Shown one piece after another: positions 39,666 to 48,280 of a DNA stretch of 64,000 nucleotides. The DNA comes from Clostridia bacterium (GTDB taxonomy: Bacteria > Bacillota > Clostridia > Monoglobales > Monoglobaceae). The notes under the pieces are model-generated. The model was given only the letters and a program-made list of their open reading frames with translations. It had not been told where the DNA came from and made no database searches. The DNA is taken from NCBI GenBank assembly GCA_017456605.1, contig JAFTJA010000003.1:1-64000 (forward strand). Reading direction: 5' to 3'. The stretch's first letter is position 1. Every line of letters begins with the position of its first letter. The position numbers and the translations under genes were made by a program.

Positions 39666-40511
39666 TTAAATTTTTTTGAGCTCGGCTTCGATTTTTTCTT
39701 TTAAAACCGGAAAGTCAATGGGCATTTCAAGAAAAAACTTATCAGCCCAAAGCCCTTGATATATGAGCATACCAAAGCCGTTGAGGGTGTCAAAGCCGCG
39801 CCGTTTTGCTTCTTTCAAAAAGGTCGTTTCGCTTGGGTTATAAATAAGGTCAAAAACCAAAGAACCCATTTTTAATGAATCAAAAAACGAAAAATCTTCA
39901 AAATCTACAGAAACTCCTGACATACCGAGGGGCGTTGCATTGATGAAGATGTCACAATCGTGTGCGGCTTCTGATATTGAGTCAAGTGTCAGAGTACCCA
40001 CGTCTGTTTTACACTTTTTAAGCCTTTTGGCTATGGACTCTGCAGAAGACAGCGTGCGGTTTAAAATGGTGATTTTTTTAGCGCCCTCCATTTCGGATTT
40101 TAAAGCCACAGTGGAGGCAGCACCCCCTGCGCCGAAGATAACAATGTTTTTTTCGGTAAAATCAAAGCCGTAATCAAAAACCGACTGAGCAAAACCACGT
40201 CCGTCGGTGTTGTAGCCAAGGAGCCTTCCGTCTTTCACTTTCACGGTATTTACAGAGCCAAAAAGCATTGCTTCATCGTCGATAAAATCAAGAAACTCAA
40301 TGATATCTTTTTTATGGGGCATAGTCAGGCTAAATCCGTTTATGCCCAGTTCTTGTGCTTCGGCAAGGTAATCTTCAAGTTCCCCTTTTTTGACACAAAC
40401 TCTGCGGTATTCAAAATCAAGCCCAAGCCCTGTAAGGACCGTACTGTGTATTATTGGAGACTTGCTGTGTGATACGGGGTCGCCGACTATGTCAAGCTTA
40501 ATCTTTTGCAT
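39666..40511 (-). CDS. aroE: Shikimate dehydrogenase
   Basis: Reduces 3-dehydroshikimate with NADPH. 281 residues. DIVGDPVSHSKSPIIHS binds shikimate, NGFSLTMPHKKDI has the catalytic Lys, GYNTDGRGF follows, and VIFGAGGAASTVALK is the nucleotide-binding loop. NRTLSSAESIA is the NADP-type site. I chose the ATG at 40511, with GGGGAGG 9 nt upstream, which overlaps aroQ by 14 bases. It is the last gene of the operon. Confidence 0.95.
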   Translation of the reverse strand: MQKIKLDIVGDPVSHSKSPIIHSTVLTGLGLDFEYRRVCVKKGELEDYLAEAQELGINGFSLTMPHKKDIIEFLDFIDDEAMLFGSVNTVKVKDGRLLGYNTDGRGFAQSVFDYGFDFTEKNIVIFGAGGAASTVALKSEMEGAKKITILNRTLSSAESIAKRLKKCKTDVGTLTLDSISEAAHDCDIFINATPLGMSGVSVDFEDFSFFDSLKMGSLVFDLIYNPSETTFLKEAKRRGFDTLNGFGMLIYQGLWADKFFLEMPIDFPVLKEKIEAELKKI

Positions 40512-40956
40512 CACTGGATGCCTCCCCAATCAGATAGTCTATGGCAAGAAGATATCCACGCAGACCAAGACCCACAATCTGTCCCACGCAGGCGGGGGCA
40601 GTGACCGACTTGTGACGGAATTCTTCACGCTTGTGTATATTGCTTATGTGGACCTCAACAGCCGGAAGATTTACCGCTACAAGTGCATCATGGATTGCGT
40701 AGCTGTAATGTGTGTATGCACCGGGATTGATGACAATAGCATCATAGTTCCCGAGCGAATGGTGGATAAAGTCAATGAGTTCACCCTCGCAATTGCTTTG
40801 AAGAACTGTTGCCTCGATGCCCTTTTCGTTTGCATAGTTTTCAATCAACGCTTCAAGGTCGGCATAGCTTTTTGTGCCGTAAACTCCTACCTCACGAACT
40901 CCCAACATATTGAGATTTGGTCCGTTCAAAACCATAATTTTCATTTTTTCAGCCAT
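40498..40956 (-). CDS. aroQ: 3-Dehydroquinate dehydratase, type II
   Basis: Dehydrates 3-dehydroquinate to 3-dehydroshikimate. 152 residues. VLNGPNLNMLGVREVGVYG holds the flexible lid with Arg and Tyr. QSNCEGELIDFIH, NPGAYTHYSYAIHDAL and VEVHISNIHKREEFRHKS carry the active-site Asn, His and Arg. The family usually acts as a dodecamer. Start overlaps the aroK end by 8 bases. Confidence 0.96.
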   Translation of the reverse strand: MAEKMKIMVLNGPNLNMLGVREVGVYGTKSYADLEALIENYANEKGIEATVLQSNCEGELIDFIHHSLGNYDAIVINPGAYTHYSYAIHDALVAVNLPAVEVHISNIHKREEFRHKSVTAPACVGQIVGLGLRGYLLAIDYLIGEASSDAKD

Positions 40957-41452
40957 TGTAAATGTTCACCTCGTTTATTATTTTTTGGGCTGCCAAGTTA
41001 AGGTCAGCAGTGTTTTCAATTTCTATATTGCAAAAATCTTTATATCTTGCGATGCGTTTTTCATAAAGTGAAAAAAGCTTTTCCTTGCCGTCTTTAAGGA
41101 GCGGGCGGTTTGATGCATCAATATCTTTCACAATAAGCTCCGGCGGACGGTTTATAAAAATTACGACGCCGTTTTTTTGCAAGATGTTTTTGTTTTCTTC
41201 TCGTTCAACAATGCCGCCGCCTGTTGAAATAACGGCATTTGTTTTTTGAGTCAGGTTTTTTAGAATTTCTGTTTCTTCGTCCCTGAAAGAGCTTTCACCA
41301 AAGGAGCTGAAGAATTCTGATATTTTCACTTTTTTCGTTTCTTCAAAAACGGCATCAGAGTCAAAAAAGCTTTTGCTAAGAAGCGTTGCAAGACGCTTTC
41401 CGATGGTGGTTTTGCCACAGCCGGGCATCCCGATAAGAATAATGTTTTTCAT
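40949..41452 (-). CDS. aroK: Shikimate kinase
   Basis: Phosphorylates shikimate with ATP. 167 residues. IILIGMPGCGKTTIGK is the P-loop, FFDSDAVFEE holds the shikimate-binding Asp, VISTGGGIVERE is the GGG motif and FINRPPELIV follows, with SNRPLL in the lid. The ATG at 41452 is chosen. A GTG at 41461 overlaps the pheA stop and sits too close to the AAAGG ribosome site. Confidence 0.94.
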   Translation of the reverse strand: MKNIILIGMPGCGKTTIGKRLATLLSKSFFDSDAVFEETKKVKISEFFSSFGESSFRDEETEILKNLTQKTNAVISTGGGIVEREENKNILQKNGVVIFINRPPELIVKDIDASNRPLLKDGKEKLFSLYEKRIARYKDFCNIEIENTADLNLAAQKIINEVNIYNG

Positions 41453-41457
41453 AAAAA

Positions 41458-42615
41458 TCACAGCCTTTCTGACGGAGATTTCGGGGCGTGATAATTTCCT
41501 AAGATTTTTAAGTATGCGATATTTTCCTTTATGGCGGACATAACCTGACGAACGCTAGGGTCAAGGAGATTGCCCTCAAAATCCACAAAAAACATATATT
41601 CAAAGTTGCGGTCGTGACGTGGTCTTGATTCAATTTTTACAAGATTTAGCCCGCTGTTTTTGAATTCCGAAAGGATATGGTGAAGAGAGCCGCTTTCGTT
41701 GGGCAGAGTGAAAAGGATGCTGATTTTGTTGCAATCTTCGTTCAAAATTCCGCGTTTCGCAATAGCCGCAAAACGTGTAACGTTGTTCTGGTTTGTGCTG
41801 ATGTTTTCAGCTAAGACTTTCAGCCCATAAATATTCGCTGTCCGTTTGTCAGCGATTGCCGCCAAAGTGGTATCGCCCATTCCCGCAACATATTTTGCGG
41901 CGAGAGCGGTGTTGTGATATGTGGTGAACTTCATTTTGGGATAGTTCTTGAAAAAGTCCTTACACTGAAGATATCCCTGTTCGTGGGAATATACGCTTTG
42001 AATGATATCAAGAGTTGCGCCCTGCGGTGCCACAAGACAGTGAACAATGGGGACATCCACCTCGCTGACAATATAAAGGTCACGGCTTTCAAGGAGGTCA
42101 AAAACTCCTGAAATTGAGCCGGTTGAGGAGTTTTCAAAGGGAAGAACTGCATAGTCCGCACGATTTTCGTCAAGGGCGTCAAGCGCTTCGGCAAAGGTCA
42201 TGGTGTTTATGCGTTTTGTATCATCCCCGAAAATTTTCATAAGTGCGGTTTCGCTGTTAGCTCCCGCAACGCCCTGAAAGACTACAGTGGGGTTTTCTTT
42301 GAGATCAGAGCGGTCAAAGCCCGCATAAAGGTCGCTGTCAAAATCACCACAAGCCAAAAACTGCCTTTGTGATTTGCGACTTATCGACATAATTTCGGAA
42401 AAAAAGTCACGGACGAAAGATGCCTTGTCAGGAGAAACCAATGACCCTTTGTGGTCAAGGATTTGTTTTTCACGGGACTTGTCAAGGACTGGAAGATTGT
42501 TTCTTTTTTTATAGTCAGCGACTTTTTCTGAACATTCCATTCTTTCAAGAAAAAGTGGAAGAAGCTTTTCGTCAATTTCGTCTATTTTATTTCGTAAAGT
42601 TTCAAGTTCGTTCAT
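41458..42615 (-). CDS. pheA: Chorismate mutase/prephenate dehydratase (P-protein)
   Basis: Makes prephenate and then phenylpyruvate. 385 residues. Chorismate mutase is at the N-terminus (LRNKIDEIDEKLLPLFLERM...KREKQ-type helix to about residue 85). The dehydratase part has VFQGVAGANSETALMKIFG and FENSSTGSISGVFDLL. The ACT domain at the C-terminus has SGSLHHILSEFKNSGLNLVKI with ESRP, the Phe-binding site for feedback control. It gives a second, protein-level control by Phe besides the operon attenuator. Confidence 0.95.
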   Translation of the reverse strand: MNELETLRNKIDEIDEKLLPLFLERMECSEKVADYKKRNNLPVLDKSREKQILDHKGSLVSPDKASFVRDFFSEIMSISRKSQRQFLACGDFDSDLYAGFDRSDLKENPTVVFQGVAGANSETALMKIFGDDTKRINTMTFAEALDALDENRADYAVLPFENSSTGSISGVFDLLESRDLYIVSEVDVPIVHCLVAPQGATLDIIQSVYSHEQGYLQCKDFFKNYPKMKFTTYHNTALAAKYVAGMGDTTLAAIADKRTANIYGLKVLAENISTNQNNVTRFAAIAKRGILNEDCNKISILFTLPNESGSLHHILSEFKNSGLNLVKIESRPRHDRNFEYMFFVDFEGNLLDPSVRQVMSAIKENIAYLKILGNYHAPKSPSERL

Positions 42616-42637: not shown

Positions 42638-43702
42638 TTAAAGTATGATGTCAAGTATAGCAAGGGCTGCACTGCACTCAACCACCACCGCTGCACGCTG
42701 AACGATGCAGGGGTCGTGACGACCATTTATTTGGATGGTAGTGTTTTCCATTTTTTCAAGGTCAACTGTTTTCTGCATCTTTGCAATAGATGGCGTGGGC
42801 TTTATTGCCACCGAAAAGAGAACCGGCATTCCGTTTGTGATGCCGCCGTTTATTCCGCCGTTGTTGTTTGTGGTGGTGAAAACCGTTTTGCCGTTGGTTT
42901 CAAATGGGTCGTTGGCAATGCTGCCTTTCATCTCCGCAAAGTCAAAGCCACTGCCGAATTCCACGCCCTTGACCGCAGGAATTGAAAACATCATTGATGA
43001 GATAGTACTTTCAAGGGATGCAAAAAACGGTGAGCCAATCCCCGGCTTTATACCAAGCACGGCACATTCGATTATGCCGCCCACAGAGTCTTTGTCCGCT
43101 GCGGCGTCAAGGATTGTCTGCTGCATTTTTTCGCCTGCGTCATCGGATATGACAGGAAAACTTTTTGCAGAAATCTTCTCCAAAAAGTCTTTTGAAAGGT
43201 CACAGTCCATGAAAGAAGCTTCCTTGACGTCATAAATTTGCTTTATGTGAGAGCCGATTGTTATACCATTTTCTTTCAGCAGTTGCTTTGCGATAGCCCC
43301 CGCAAAAACCAATGGTGCGGTAATTCTCCCTGAAAAGTGTCCGCCGCCACGAAAATCGTGGAAGCTTCCGTATTTTTGAAAGCCGGTGAAGTCCGCATGG
43401 CTGGGGCGGAGAAGGCTTTTGTCATAGTCCTTTGATTTTGTATTGGTGTTCCGGATAATTCCGCAGATTGGTGTTCCTGTGGTAATGCCGTTCATAACGC
43501 CTGAAAGAATTTCCACCTCGTCGCTTTCTTTCCGTGGAGTGGAAAGAGCGTTTTGACCGGGAGCCCGGCGGAGCATTTCCCGGCGGATGAAATCCATATC
43601 AAGGGAAAGCCCTGACGGAATTCCGTCAAGCACAACGCCGAGGGCAGTCCCGTGGGATTCGCCGAATATACTTATTTTTATTTTGTTGCCCCAGGTATTC
43701 AT
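42638..43702 (-). CDS. aroC: Chorismate synthase
   Basis: Makes chorismate from EPSP with reduced FMN. 354 residues. FGESHGTALGVVLDGIPSGL is the first signature. The segment RPSHADFTGFQKYG and DFRGGGHFSGRIT are conserved FMN-binding parts. NNNGGINGGITNGMP and FSVAIKPTPSI are near the C-terminus. It overlaps aroA by 4 bases. Confidence 0.97.
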   Translation of the reverse strand: MNTWGNKIKISIFGESHGTALGVVLDGIPSGLSLDMDFIRREMLRRAPGQNALSTPRKESDEVEILSGVMNGITTGTPICGIIRNTNTKSKDYDKSLLRPSHADFTGFQKYGSFHDFRGGGHFSGRITAPLVFAGAIAKQLLKENGITIGSHIKQIYDVKEASFMDCDLSKDFLEKISAKSFPVISDDAGEKMQQTILDAAADKDSVGGIIECAVLGIKPGIGSPFFASLESTISSMMFSIPAVKGVEFGSGFDFAEMKGSIANDPFETNGKTVFTTTNNNGGINGGITNGMPVLFSVAIKPTPSIAKMQKTVDLEKMENTTIQINGRHDPCIVQRAAVVVECSAALAILDIIL

Positions 43703-44970
43703 TTAACATTACCTCCGAGTTTAATATAATCATCAAAAAACATAGGGTATGACTTTGTTACAGCTTTTTTTGCTCCTGAAATAGTGACGCTACCCTCACA
43801 ACGGCAAGACGCGATTGCTGCAGCCATTGTGATGCGATGGTCGTTCCATGAGGAAAGGTCGGCACCTTTTAAAATTTGTTTTCCCGTGATTTCCAGAAAG
43901 TCATAACCTTCGGTTATATCTGCACCCGTTTTTTTGAGTTCGCTGGTGATTGCTGCCAGACGGTCACTTTCTTTTATGCGAAGTCTGCCTGCGTTTTCGA
44001 TGCGGCTCTTGCCTTTGCAAAATGAAAGAAGAACCGAAACAATCGGCACAAGGTCCGGAATTTCGTCGGCATCTACCACAATGCCATGCATCTGCGCAGA
44101 GGCGAATGCCCTCACGGTGTTGTCATCAATCCATTTTGTGGTAGCACCGGCATTTTCGAGAATATCAATGATTTTTTTGTCACCCTGAATACTGCCTTGA
44201 TTAAGACCGCGGCAGGCAATATCACAGCCAAGTGCCCCGGCAACCAGGAAAAAGGCTGCCTGAGAAAAATCGCCCTCCACAGTGTAGTTTGTGGCAGAGT
44301 ATTTTTGGTTTCCTTTTATGATAAAGGTTGAATAATCAAAGTTTTCAATGTCAATGCCAAAGGTTTTTAGAACGTCAAGGGTTATATCAATATAGCCTTT
44401 TGATGAAAGGTTACCCTCGATTTTTATCACACTGTCACCGCCAAGAATGGGGAGCGCAAACAAAAGGCCTGTAACAAACTGTGAACTCACATCTCCGGGA
44501 ACAGAAAATTCGCCCGGCGTGAGCTTGCCTGAAAGGGACAAAACGCCTTTATTCAAGCTGTATTTGATGCCATTTGTGTCAAAAATCTTAAAGTACGGGT
44601 CAAGGGGACGCTCCATAAGCTTGCCGTGACCTTTAAAGGATATGTTATCTGTAAGTGCCAATGCTATGGGAACGAAAAACCGCAACGTAGAGCCGCTTTC
44701 GCCACAATCAAGAACAAGTTTTTTGGAAGAAAAAGAACTTGTCTTTTTGAAAGAAAGCTTTTTTGTTTTTTTGTCAAACGCCCAATTTCCGCCCAGTGCT
44801 TTCACACAGGAGAGAGTTGCTTCAATGTCCTTTGAAAGCTCAATGTTTGATACCGTGCAGGGCGAATTCGACAAAAATGCCGATATGATTGCCCGGTGGG
44901 CAAAACTTTTTGAGGGCGGAATGTTTACGGTGCCGCAAAGGGGTGTGGGTGTAATTGTTACCATATCCAT
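43699..44970 (-). CDS. aroA: EPSP synthase (3-phosphoshikimate 1-carboxyvinyltransferase)
   Basis: Adds enolpyruvyl to shikimate 3-phosphate. 423 residues. PPSKSFAHRAIISAFL holds the catalytic Lys. LDCGESGSTLRFFVPIAL is the active-site signature. The end has RLRIKESDRLAAI and WNDHRITMAAAIA. Residue choice in the CGESGSTLRF loop (GES rather than GNAGT) suggests a class II-like enzyme. It overlaps aroB by 13 bases. Confidence 0.96.
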   Translation of the reverse strand: MDMVTITPTPLCGTVNIPPSKSFAHRAIISAFLSNSPCTVSNIELSKDIEATLSCVKALGGNWAFDKKTKKLSFKKTSSFSSKKLVLDCGESGSTLRFFVPIALALTDNISFKGHGKLMERPLDPYFKIFDTNGIKYSLNKGVLSLSGKLTPGEFSVPGDVSSQFVTGLLFALPILGGDSVIKIEGNLSSKGYIDITLDVLKTFGIDIENFDYSTFIIKGNQKYSATNYTVEGDFSQAAFFLVAGALGCDIACRGLNQGSIQGDKKIIDILENAGATTKWIDDNTVRAFASAQMHGIVVDADEIPDLVPIVSVLLSFCKGKSRIENAGRLRIKESDRLAAITSELKKTGADITEGYDFLEITGKQILKGADLSSWNDHRITMAAAIASCRCEGSVTISGAKKAVTKSYPMFFDDYIKLGGNVK

Positions 44971-46013
44971 ACCTTTTCTTTCTCCGTTGGCTTTAAAACT
45001 GCTTTGCCTATTTTTTCGGGAAGTACGAGGGTTACGAGATTTCCCTCGCCTTTTTTATCTACTTTCACTGCATCAAGAAGAGATGACTTGTCTATTTTAG
45101 CGTCTGATGGCAAGCCAAAGCTTTCAACCAGTGCCTTTATGCGTGACGATGTGCCAAGTGGAGTGATGCCTGCGTGCTCGCCGTACTGTACTGCCATAAC
45201 CATACCGGCGGCAACGGCCTGTCCATGGGAGTAGCCTGAGAAATTATACTTCTTTTCAATAGCGTGACCGAAGGTGTGACCAAAATTCAAAATCATACGC
45301 CGTCCGGTGTCCAGCTCGTCCTCTTCAACAACCATCTTTTTTAGCTCACAGCAACGGTAAATTACGTCATCAATGATTTTTGAGATGGTGGCTCTTGATG
45401 GGGTTGCTTCGATTTTTTCGAAAAGCTTTTCGTCAAGAATAACGCCGTACTTTATAGCCTCTGCCATGCCATCGGAAAAAATTTCATCAGAAAGGGTATC
45501 AAGACAGAGGGGGTCAATGAGTACAAGCTTTGGCTGATAAAAAGTGCCAACCAGATTTTTTCCATGGGGCAGATTTACTGCTACCTTTCCGCCAACACTG
45601 CTGTCTATTTGCGCCAGGAGTGTGGTGGGGATTTGCACAAAAGGAACGCCCCGAAGAAGTGTTGCCGCACAAAAACCCGTGAGGTCCCCGACAATTCCGC
45701 CGCCAAGGGCTATTATCAAATCACTTCTGGTGATGCCAAAATCCAGCATTTTGTCATAAAGTGTGCTGAGGGTTTTCAGGGATTTTGAGCCCTCACCGGG
45801 AGGAACGGTGATAAGAACAGAAGAAAATCCACTTTCTTCAAGGGATGAAATCAGAGCTTGGCTGTAAAGGGGCGCAACGTTGCTGTCGGTGACAATTGCA
45901 ACTTTGCAGGGTTTTGTCAGCTCTTTGATGAATTTTCCGCTGTTTTTCAGTATTCCCTTTTCGATTTTTATTTCATACTCCCGATTTGGGATGTTTATAC
46001 AAAGATTTTGCAT
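44958..46013 (-). CDS. aroB: 3-Dehydroquinate synthase
   Basis: Closes DAHP to 3-dehydroquinate using NAD+ and a metal. 351 residues. ALGGGIVGDLTGFCAATLLRG binds NAD, FVQIPTTLLAQIDSSVGGK and HGKNLVGTFYQPK are active-site runs. MAEAIKYGVI and LNFGHTFGHAIE hold the metal-binding Glu and His residues. GGAGGATTTTCACAG lies before the ATG. Confidence 0.97.
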   Translation of the reverse strand: MQNLCINIPNREYEIKIEKGILKNSGKFIKELTKPCKVAIVTDSNVAPLYSQALISSLEESGFSSVLITVPPGEGSKSLKTLSTLYDKMLDFGITRSDLIIALGGGIVGDLTGFCAATLLRGVPFVQIPTTLLAQIDSSVGGKVAVNLPHGKNLVGTFYQPKLVLIDPLCLDTLSDEIFSDGMAEAIKYGVILDEKLFEKIEATPSRATISKIIDDVIYRCCELKKMVVEEDELDTGRRMILNFGHTFGHAIEKKYNFSGYSHGQAVAAGMVMAVQYGEHAGITPLGTSSRIKALVESFGLPSDAKIDKSSLLDAVKVDKKGEGNLVTLVLPEKIGKAVLKPTEKEKVWIW

Positions 46014-46073: not shown

Positions 46074-46943
46074 TCAACAATTTTCAGGCTCTTTGTTTTG
46101 CATAGTCAGTTTATTTTCTCTGACAGATGAAAGAAGCCTGATGAGCGCTTGTTTGTCACTCGCCTCGATGGCACTTTTGAATTTTGAAAGGGAACTTAAA
46201 AAAGTGTCAAGCTCTTCAAGCAAAAAGTCTTTATTTTCAAGGAACAACTGACTCCAAAGCTGTGGGTTTATGTTTGCAATTCTGGTGCAATCACGAAAGG
46301 CTCCGGCGGTGTATGCACGGTTCATTTTGCTGTTATAATCAAGGCAAAGAGCGGCGGCAGACACATGCATCAAATCGCTTGTGTAGGCAATGACACTGTC
46401 ATGTTCTTCGGGTGCACTCTCTGTAATCCTTGTTGCGCCAATGAATTTTGCCATTTCCCTCACCAGCTTTATTGCGTCGGGTGAAGAAGATGAAATAGGA
46501 GTTATAATAAACCCGCACATACCAAAAAGCTCAGGCGCAGCGCTGTCAAATCCGTCAGTTTCTTTGCCTGCCATAGGGTGCCCGCCCACATACTGACAAC
46601 CATCGGGTAAAATTTCGGCAATTTCCTTGGCGAGCTTTGTTTTTACTCCGCAAACATCTGTGATAACTGCACCTTTTTTGAAATGCTCGCTGTTTTCAGC
46701 AATAATTTTTGTTATAAGCTCGGGATATACACAAAGAATGATGAGGTCAGCATCGCGGATAGCCGGAGCAGGATGTTCAAAGACCTCGTCTACCGCATTT
46801 TTCGCGAGTGCTTTTTCGCGGGTCACGGGGTCAATGTCGCAGCCTGAAATTTTCGCATTCTTAAAGCCGTGCAGAGCATAAGCCATAGAGCCACCGATGA
46901 TGCCAAGCCCGATAATTGCAATTTTAAAGTCGTTTTCCTCCAT
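46074..46943 (-). CDS. tyrA: Prephenate dehydrogenase
   Basis: Oxidises prephenate to 4-hydroxyphenylpyruvate, the Tyr branch. 289 residues. IAIIGLGIIGGSMAYAL is the nucleotide loop, GCDIDPVTREKAL follows with the acidic NAD-type residue. DVCGVKTKLAKEI, GGHPMAGKE with the catalytic His and EHDSVIAYTSDLMHV mark the family. There is no ACT domain, unlike Bacillus TyrA, so feedback control of this enzyme may be weak. Confidence 0.94.
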   Translation of the reverse strand: MEENDFKIAIIGLGIIGGSMAYALHGFKNAKISGCDIDPVTREKALAKNAVDEVFEHPAPAIRDADLIILCVYPELITKIIAENSEHFKKGAVITDVCGVKTKLAKEIAEILPDGCQYVGGHPMAGKETDGFDSAAPELFGMCGFIITPISSSSPDAIKLVREMAKFIGATRITESAPEEHDSVIAYTSDLMHVSAAALCLDYNSKMNRAYTAGAFRDCTRIANINPQLWSQLFLENKDFLLEELDTFLSSLSKFKSAIEASDKQALIRLLSSVRENKLTMQNKEPENC

Positions 46944-46974: not shown

Positions 46975-48000
46975 TTATTTTATTTCTTTCCCAAAGTGAA
47001 CACTCATTGCCCGAAGTTTTTCCATAAGGCTTTCGTACTGAGCCAAATCAAGGGACTGAGCACCGTCGCAAAGAGCGTTTTTGGGGTCGTTGTGAACTTC
47101 TACAATAATACCGTCAGCACCCACAGCAAGTGCTGCAAGGGACAAAGGCCCAACCATCCAGCTGATTCCTGCAGAGTGAGAGGGGTCAACCACAACAGGA
47201 AGGTGACTCATCTTTTTTACTGCCGGGATTGCGCTGAGATCCAGAGTGTTTCGGGTGTAGGTTTCAAAGGTCCTGATGCCCCGTTCACAGAGAATGACGT
47301 TGTGGTTTCCGCCTGCCATAATGTATTCAGCAGACATCAGCCATTCTTCAATGGTAGCAGAAAGTCCACGTTTCAAAAGAACAGGCTTTTGAATTTTGCC
47401 AAGCTCTTTAAGAAGGTCAAAATTCTGCATATTTCTTGCCCCCACCTGAATAATGTCCACGTTTTCGTTGAAGGTTTCAATAAGGGACGGGCACATAATT
47501 TCTGTGATTATGGGAAGACCGGTTTCGCGTCTTGCCTCTTTCAAAAGCTCAAGACCTTCAAGCTCGAGACCTTGGAAAGAGTAGGGCGATGTGCGAGGCT
47601 TGTATGCACCGCCGCGAAGCAATGATGCACCGTTTTTCTTTACGCTGTTTGCAACTGTGAGGATTTGCTCCTTTGATTCAACGCTGCAGGGCCCTGCCAT
47701 AACTACGAAGCTTTTGCCGTCACCTATTTTTGCATCGCCGACATCTATCACAGTGTTGTTGGGATGAAATTTTCGGTTTGCCTTTTTGAACGGCTCCTGA
47801 ACGCGCATAATGCGTTCTACATCCGGGTCAAGGAGGAGCCTGTCGGCGTCAAGGGCGTGGGTGTCGCCCACAAGACCCATAACGATGCTGTCTTTTCCTC
47901 GGATAAGGTCAATATCAAGACCTTTTTCTTTGAAATCCGCCATCATTAGATTGAGTTTTTCTTCTGCGATAGTTGTTTTTGTTACGATTACCAAATTCAC
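46975..48000 (-). CDS. aroF: 3-Deoxy-7-phosphoheptulonate (DAHP) synthase, type I-beta
   Basis: First step of the shikimate pathway: condenses PEP and erythrose 4-phosphate. 341 residues. The N-terminal ferredoxin-like domain (LVIVTKTTIAEEKLNLM to LVGDT) is the allosteric domain found in Thermotoga-type enzymes. The barrel follows: VMAGPCSVESKEQ, LRGGAYKPRTSPYSFQG, QVGARNMQNFDLL, LLKRGLSATIEEW, VVDPSHSAGIS. I start it at the GTG at 48000, with AAAGG just upstream. The frame is open further up, through the terminator. It is the first structural gene after a Phe/Tyr-rich leader frame and terminator. Confidence 0.94.
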   Translation of the reverse strand: MNLVIVTKTTIAEEKLNLMMADFKEKGLDIDLIRGKDSIVMGLVGDTHALDADRLLLDPDVERIMRVQEPFKKANRKFHPNNTVIDVGDAKIGDGKSFVVMAGPCSVESKEQILTVANSVKKNGASLLRGGAYKPRTSPYSFQGLELEGLELLKEARRETGLPIITEIMCPSLIETFNENVDIIQVGARNMQNFDLLKELGKIQKPVLLKRGLSATIEEWLMSAEYIMAGGNHNVILCERGIRTFETYTRNTLDLSAIPAVKKMSHLPVVVDPSHSAGISWMVGPLSLAALAVGADGIIVEVHNDPKNALCDGAQSLDLAQYESLMEKLRAMSVHFGKEIK

Positions 48001-48031
48001 CAAGACCTTTCCTGAATAAATTAAATAAAAA

Positions 48032-48061
48032 AGAGAGCCCGTTTTGTATAACGAGCTCTCT
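48032..48061 (-). terminator. Attenuator terminator upstream of aroF
   Basis: On the minus strand AGAGAGCTCGTT, loop ATACAA, AACGGGCTCTCT (one U-G pair), followed by TTTTTTATTT. A 12-bp intrinsic terminator between the leader frame and the first gene of the operon. Read-through is needed for expression. Confidence 0.9.
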
Positions 48062-48080: not shown

Positions 48081-48221
48081 CTAAATAGTTGGCGCACATA
48101 TCAGCCCATTATACTTAAAGTTTTTTGCAAAGTAAAAATAACCATAGCTAAAATAAAAGCTAAGGCTGATAAAGTAAAAGAAATATTTAACTGTACTTGA
48201 AAGTGCATTTGACAGTTTCAT
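48081..48221 (-). CDS. Phe/Tyr-rich leader peptide of the aromatic operon
   Basis: A 46-codon frame, ATG at 48221 to TAG at 48081, not reported for this operon type as far as I know. It holds 8 Phe and 7 Tyr codons, and 13 of the 19 residues at 13-31 are Phe or Tyr. It begins MKLSNALSSTVK and ends KYNGLICAPTI. AAAGGA lies 9 nt before the ATG, and a promoter is about 35 bp upstream. It ends 20 bases before the attenuator stem. I infer that ribosome stalling at the Phe/Tyr codons controls read-through. A small membrane peptide is the main alternative. Confidence 0.85.
   Translation of the reverse strand: MKLSNALSSTVKYFFYFISLSFYFSYGYFYFAKNFKYNGLICAPTI
48099..48171 (-). promoter_or_regulatory. 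Mutually exclusive RNA segments of the aro attenuator
   Basis: Segment A, TATCAGCC (48171-48164), lies in the Phe/Tyr codons and pairs with GGCTGATA in segment B (48106-48099). Segment B also contains AATGGGCT (48110-48103), which can pair with AGCTCGTT in the terminator's 5' arm (48057-48050), with two wobbles. B resembles the terminator 3' arm AACGGGCT. So B can either close A or block the terminator. Confidence 0.75.
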
Positions 48222-48251
48222 ATTTGTGCGTCCTTTCGACCATTTCAAAAT

Positions 48252-48280
48252 ATTTTAGCACATTAAAGCAATAAAGTCAA
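48252..48280 (-). promoter_or_regulatory. Promoter of the aromatic operon
   Basis: Minus strand TTGACT (48280-48275), a 17-bp spacer and TAAAAT (48257-48252), about 30 bp before the leader-peptide ATG. Confidence 0.8.

Follow-up and report, generated by a model that had tools for sequence, protein, structure and literature searches.

A probable phenylalanine/tyrosine leader-peptide attenuator ahead of the aromatic amino acid operon in Clostridia

Leader-peptide attenuation of pheA (through pheL), pheST and trp is established in Proteobacteria, and the textbook view of control by tRNA charging assigns T-boxes to Bacillota and leader peptides to Proteobacteria. The proteobacterial attenuators consist of a short open reading frame (ORF) with many codons for the regulated amino acid and its own start site, and an antiterminator that competes with an intrinsic terminator; the biosynthetic operon lies 3′. 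The Clostridial leader described here is alike in each of these respects. It differs in carrying Phe and Tyr codons in similar numbers, at times with one Trp codon, in having a pause-type hairpin within the sensor codons and mostly apart from the antiterminator strand, and in preceding one operon that covers the common pathway and both branches.

Within Bacillota, His leader peptides have been predicted at hisS/hisZ in bacilli (PMC2965389) and at the his operons of the Bacillus cereus group, Peptostreptococcaceae and Erysipelotrichales (PMC9413887). Like the present leader these are predicted classical attenuators in place of T-boxes, but they concern histidine and each is reported from a few lineages (PMC2965389, PMC9413887). 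A Leu-rich attenuator peptide of the ilv-leu operon in Staphylococcus aureus has genetic support; it too is a leader-peptide attenuator in Bacillota, and differs in its Leu/Ile codons and branched-chain operon (PMC5794164). In Acholeplasma and environmental sequences only, the uORFC-13-1 motif (24 representatives) comprises a predicted uORF with a U run coding at least one Phe, upstream of aroF, for which attenuation was proposed (PMC8632094). A Phe-codon uORF followed by a terminator upstream of aroF is common to both loci, whereas the description of the motif itself reports neither a Tyr run nor an occurrence in Clostridia (PMC8632094). Since His and Leu leader-peptide attenuators have already been predicted in Bacillota, one of them with genetic support (PMC2965389, PMC9413887, PMC5794164), the kind of system is not new. 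The preliminary description of this locus had called it a candidate new system; this holds for the Phe/Tyr leader, of which no description was found in the open-licence literature searched (an earlier report elsewhere is possible), but not for the attenuator type. The element is real, conserved and unusually widespread, and from sequence comparison it is most likely a Phe/Tyr (perhaps also Trp) leader-peptide attenuator.

The leader reading frame, its operon and its conservation

The window is a stretch of 64,000 nucleotides from a Clostridia bacterium of the order Monoglobales, and its features are collected in Table 1. The translation of the leader ORF is MKLSNALSSTVKYFFYFISLSFYFSYGYFYFAKNFKYNGLICAPTI. 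The frame of the preliminary description, with its codon counts and its Phe/Tyr-rich stretch, was reproduced in full; the promoter and ribosome site that it had placed ahead of the frame were found, as was a terminator between the frame and the DAHP synthase gene, 19 nt past the stop codon. The promoter matches the consensus at 10 of 12 positions, and a TG precedes its −10 element. Dinucleotide shuffling of the region, repeated 20,000 times, gave no ORF of at least 30 residues with Phe/Tyr at 13 of 19 positions, the shuffle maximum being 11. Across the six frames of the 64-kb window, the top-scoring 19-residue Phe/Tyr stretches all lie within the leader ORF. The Phe/Tyr richness of the frame is not due to chance.

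Downstream lies the operon aroF-tyrA-aroB-aroA-aroC-pheA-aroK-aroQ-aroE, which comprises the common pathway, the Phe branch and the Tyr branch and is without trp genes. The start of aroF was assigned to a GTG at 48000 behind AGGAAAGG; a TTG at 47994 is an alternative.

Table 1. Features of the leader region and the aromatic operon in the window (positions are those of the window).
Feature	Position	Strand	Basis or detail
Sigma-70-type promoter	48252..48280	(-)	TTGACT (48280-48275), 17 nt, TAAAAT (48257-48252)
Shine-Dalgarno AAAGGA	48231..48236	(-)	ATG 9 nt downstream
Leader peptide ORF	48081..48221	(-)	46 codons, 8 Phe and 7 Tyr; kept in relatives
Phe/Tyr sensor run, residues 13-31 (YFFYFISLSFYFSYGYFYF)	48129..48185	(-)	Phe/Tyr at 13/19
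Segment 1, AUCAGCC	48164..48170	(-)	can pair with 48106-48100 (GGCUGAU) and so block the antiterminator; window's genus
P1 hairpin AGCC.UAGCU-UUUAUUUU-AGCUA.GGUU, in the Phe/Tyr run	48140..48167	(-)	synonymous-codon null, pair counts, AGC serines
Segment 2, GUAUAAUGGGCU, antiterminator 5′ strand, in the last third (3′ part) of the ORF	48103..48114	(-)	
Segment 3, AGCUCGUUAUAC, antiterminator 3′ strand	48046..48057	(-)	overlaps terminator 5′ arm and part of loop
Intrinsic terminator hairpin AGAGAGCUCGUU...AACGGGCUCUCU	48032..48061	(-)	12 pairs
Terminator U-tract	48023..48031	(-)	
aroF, DAHP synthase, N-terminal ferredoxin-like domain	46975..48000	(-)	Pfam DAHP_synth_1 and ferredoxin-like domain
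tyrA, prephenate dehydrogenase	46074..46943	(-)	Pfam
aroB, 3-dehydroquinate synthase	44958..46013	(-)	Pfam
aroA, EPSP synthase	43699..44970	(-)	Pfam
aroC, chorismate synthase	42638..43702	(-)	Pfam
pheA, chorismate mutase-prephenate dehydratase	41458..42615	(-)	Pfam
aroK, shikimate kinase	40949..41461	(-)	Pfam
aroQ, type II dehydroquinase	40498..40956	(-)	Pfam
aroE, shikimate dehydrogenase, final gene of the operon	39666..40529	(-)	Pfam

Non-conservation of the Phe/Tyr frame in close relatives had been named beforehand as grounds for refutation; the frame is kept upstream of aromatic genes in many families. In a survey of Monoglobales that used the window's DAHP synthase as query, followed by inspection of the upstream DNA, a Phe/Tyr-rich frame was observed upstream of aromatic genes in nearly all relatives; two loci (L008 and L014) lie at contig ends. 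Across almost the whole family, a profile built from 17 leaders finds a single strong copy in each genome. Among these are three members of the window's genus that have no aroF match; there the leader lies immediately 5′ of tyrA-aroB-aroA-aroC-pheA, with tyrA first. A chorismate-mutase gene follows the leader in G028, as it does in another family (G042, G044). The leader device stays put while the gene behind it changes. Upstream DNA of L029 and L030 (genus g3) was without a Phe/Tyr leader on inspection, and no convincing leader was found in genera g3 (L029, L030), g5 (G024/G025) and g8 (G031/G032). T-boxes were absent from the stretches inspected in relatives that have no convincing leader (L068-L070, L208) and from those inspected around aroF in G010 and G032. 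A 6S RNA gene (70 bits; L012:64-255, minus strand) was observed near the aromatic operon of G030.

Beyond the family, a 19-row profile matched 52 of 391 genomes and 34 of 222 genera in a class sample at E <= 0.01, and a 27-row profile matched 25 of 398 genomes in a phylum sample, other classes included; both tallies are approximate and would shrink somewhat under strict counting, as phylum-profile matches with E > ~1e-4 and several of the class-profile ones are chance or unrelated frames. All strong matches that were checked precede aroF, an aroG-type DAHP synthase gene, tyrA, aroB or a chorismate-mutase gene, and among those inspected the gap between leader and gene is ~80-400 nt. A pattern scan of named genomes assigned the family to Monoglobus (Clostridia, order Monoglobales, according to NCBI) and relatives, comprising uncultured Monoglobus spp., Ca. 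Monoglobus merdigallinarum, Ca. Roslinia caecavium, and Oscillospiraceae and Clostridia MAGs; it also found the leader in Pygmaiobacter massiliensis ahead of aroB-aroC, and in Christensenella sp. UBA6094 and one Negativicutes MAG. This pattern of retention marks the frame as a conserved leader peptide.

Codons and RNA structures within the leader

At run positions −12 to −10, Phe and Tyr exchange freely between leaders (27 Phe/24 Tyr, 28/23 and 30/17), and synonymous variation is also seen. At least two Phe and at least two Tyr occur in the 20-residue core in 40 of the 43 lineages. The interchange of Phe and Tyr together with synonymous change fits sensing of codons, through charged tRNA, better than it fits a specific peptide being recognised. 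The Phe and Tyr input proposed in the preliminary description is supported in this way, although it may be wider, as a Trp codon occurs in the core in 16 of 43 lineages. Trp may be a third input or may merely suit the hairpin. In family f59 (L142, L144, L210) and in FSWGY-type leaders a single recurrent Trp codon lies in or beside P1, and at this position it may let the leader sense Trp too. The Gly of the GYF motif is present in 55 of 62 leaders. A Cys occurs at codon +4 after this Gly in 37 of 62, and the P1 hairpin does not account for it.

P1 lies inside the sensor run; its loop consists mostly of Phe/Tyr codons and its 3′ flank is U-rich. In Monoglobus it reads UAGCCAGAGCU-UUUACUUU-AGCUUUGGUUA, again with a loop of Phe and Tyr codons. 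Across 43 lineages the mean energy of P1 is −11.64, compared with −3.95 (sd 0.40, minimum −5.13) for random synonymous codons, drawn for all lineages with the codon usage of this window. This synonymous-codon test is the main support for P1 and is stronger than the pair counts. Among 14 ungapped P1 sequences the share of paired cells is 86%, as opposed to no more than 49% after sliding, and the covariation score is high; changes on both sides occur at 2 pairs in these sequences, which is not above shuffles. Codon choice points the same way. AGC encodes Ser in 87 of 91 cases in the core and in 24 of 138 in the remainder of the leader ORFs; in the operon genes the AGC share is 48 of 208. UAU is favoured for the Tyr of GYF relative to other Tyr residues (34:4 versus 140:70, p = 0.004), a bias that keeps the 3′ flank of P1 U-rich, and the Phe codon has no comparable bias. 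The stem-to-stem register of P1 differs between lineages, mostly in whole codons. This dual-coded hairpin, absent from the preliminary description, is the most novel part of the leader system.

The antiterminator, formed by segments 2 and 3, is a duplex of 12 bp in the window. As segment 3 comprises the 5′ arm of the terminator and part of its loop, antiterminator and terminator are mutually exclusive. Lineages differ widely in the paired sequence; Monoglobus has, for instance, GUAAAGCCCG, another genus CCUUUGAACCU and distant families CUAAUGAG. Native duplexes of 43 lineages have a mean energy of −15.3 kcal/mol, whereas 10,000 permutations of the partners among these lineages gave −9.8 (sd 0.45; best −11.4). 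For 26 of 43 lineages the native pairing ranks among the best 5% when partners are swapped, and 37 of 64 have p <= 0.05 for the antiterminator relative to shuffled upstream sequence; terminators and antiterminators were called automatically, and for some lineages the calls are weak or incorrect. The antiterminator, which excludes the terminator, covaries between lineages. The UAAUG element of segment 2 is read in each of the three frames of the ORF, encoding for example PNEL or FLMS, and so is conserved as RNA, not as peptide. Segment 2 typically begins 8-31 nt past the GYF core and finishes near the stop codon; from this position it would be free with a ribosome in the run and near or under the ribosome once the stop codon is reached, as the switch proposed below requires. 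In the window, however, its end lies ~20 nt ahead of the stop codon, just at the limit of the footprint of a ribosome standing there.

The pairing of segments 1 and 2 is present in the window and in most of its genus. A trp-like 1:2 pairing in every lineage was dropped, as it fails by eye outside this genus. With the pairing confined to one genus so far, the ribosome may by itself block segment 2 in fed cells. Another promoter-like match, TTTACT-17-TATAAT, lies inside the leader ORF (48136-48108, minus strand); it is probably coincidental, since its TATAAT belongs to segment 2.

Proposed switch and alternative explanations

The ORF, its conservation and genomic context, the exclusive pairings and their covariation are observed, and they suggest a ribosome-mediated transcription attenuator that would report the charging of tRNA-Phe and tRNA-Tyr and govern the whole Phe/Tyr biosynthesis operon. 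The probability of this reading is put at about 0.88. RNA polymerase would initiate near 48245 and copy the leader ORF, and P1 probably holds it until an arriving ribosome melts the hairpin. A shortage of charged Phe- or Tyr-tRNA would stall the ribosome within the run and leave segment 2 unpaired. Segment 2 could then pair with segment 3, the terminator would be prevented and the operon transcribed. With both charged tRNAs plentiful, the ribosome would reach the stop codon, so that it covers segment 2 or, within the genus of the window, segment 2 pairs again with segment 1; with segment 2 occupied, the terminator would form and transcription would end ahead of aroF. That the frame is translated, that the ribosome stalls and the polymerase pauses, and which way the operon responds are inferred from sequence. 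The preliminary description had likewise read the locus as leader-peptide attenuation, and the conserved frame, together with a covarying antiterminator that excludes the terminator, supports this.

P1 is probably an RNA polymerase pause hairpin that is opened by the translating ribosome; a weak first terminator is possible. A more far-reaching version, put forward tentatively and with the balance of judgement somewhat against it, is that the leader is an ancient, phylum-wide dual-amino-acid attenuator whose sensor codons themselves are the pause hairpin, a stem with a U-rich tract that may also serve as a weak first terminator, such that decoding of Phe and Tyr releases the polymerase. Such a two-stage switch, if true, would be unlike the trp/his design, in which the pause hairpin is formed by attenuator strands 1 and 2. 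Through the dual-coded hairpin, the coupling of transcription to translation becomes open to direct test in Clostridia.

The same RNA switch could in principle be driven by nascent-chain arrest, with the Ser, Gly, GYF and Cys residues of the peptide stalling the ribosome in response to a free metabolite, as in the metabolite-responsive arrest peptides TnaC and SpeFL. Some non-aromatic residues, the Gly of GYF and the Cys at +4, are indeed kept across families. The conserved Ser, however, is explained by P1, given the confinement of the AGC preference to the core, and Phe and Tyr interchange freely. Arrest motifs are usually located in the C-terminal part of a peptide, and this part of the leader varies by lineage and is read in different frames. 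Since the hairpin and the frame changes explain most of the conserved residues, arrest at the level of the peptide is ranked low and considered improbable.

Less probable again, and very unlikely, is a switch independent of translation, in which a ligand or protein would bind P1 or the leader RNA and the frame would have no part. The strong conservation of P1 as RNA and the covariation of the antiterminator are in keeping with such a switch, yet a Phe/Tyr-rich frame with start and stop codons persists despite great sequence divergence, through Phe/Tyr exchanges and synonymous substitutions, and the register of the P1 stems is variable, mostly by whole codons. Rfam covariance models, known amino-acid leader families included, left the leader unmatched in the window and nine leader loci. 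The hydrophobic character and length (~30-60 residues) of the peptide would also suit a small membrane protein or toxin encoded ahead of the operon, but there is a single strong copy per genome, always by aromatic genes where checked and with a terminator after it; length and C-terminus vary, and an NCBIfam search with four leader peptides returned nothing meaningful. A membrane peptide or toxin was rejected on genomic context and is hardly credible. If the attenuator reading is correct, Tyr joins the amino acids read by leader-peptide attenuation, and many short "hypothetical" frames in gut genomes would be marked as regulatory.

T-boxes in the same genome

The premise that Bacillota mostly use T-boxes holds for this organism. 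The T-box model (RF00230) has five matches in the window's genome and none at the aromatic operon. One of the five is a T-box-like leader upstream of pheS-pheT (L180; G000:C12:14200-17000) with 75.5 bits and E = 3.5e-15, which is under the Rfam gathering score of 93 yet bears the conserved GGUGGUACCGCG element. T-boxes are thus available to the cell, and their absence from the aromatic operon indicates that the operon uses something else. T-box leaders resemble the present leader in the signal, tRNA charging, in their similar output and in their occurrence in the same phylum, and at pheST in this very genome; they differ in binding the tRNA directly, so that translation is not needed. One cell probably reads the charging of tRNA-Phe through two unrelated devices, the leader peptide and the pheST T-box. 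The aromatic-pathway leader recurs across many families of Clostridia and beyond, and in this genome it stands alongside T-boxes. The other four T-boxes (L176-L179; G000 C13, C7, C11 and C2) lie ahead of a sodium/solute symporter together with an AMP-binding ligase in one case, acyl-CoA-synthetase-like genes with an N-terminal extension resembling an XRE domain in two, and a VorB-type 2-oxoacid oxidoreductase operon in one. These four targets look catabolic, which is unusual for T-boxes.
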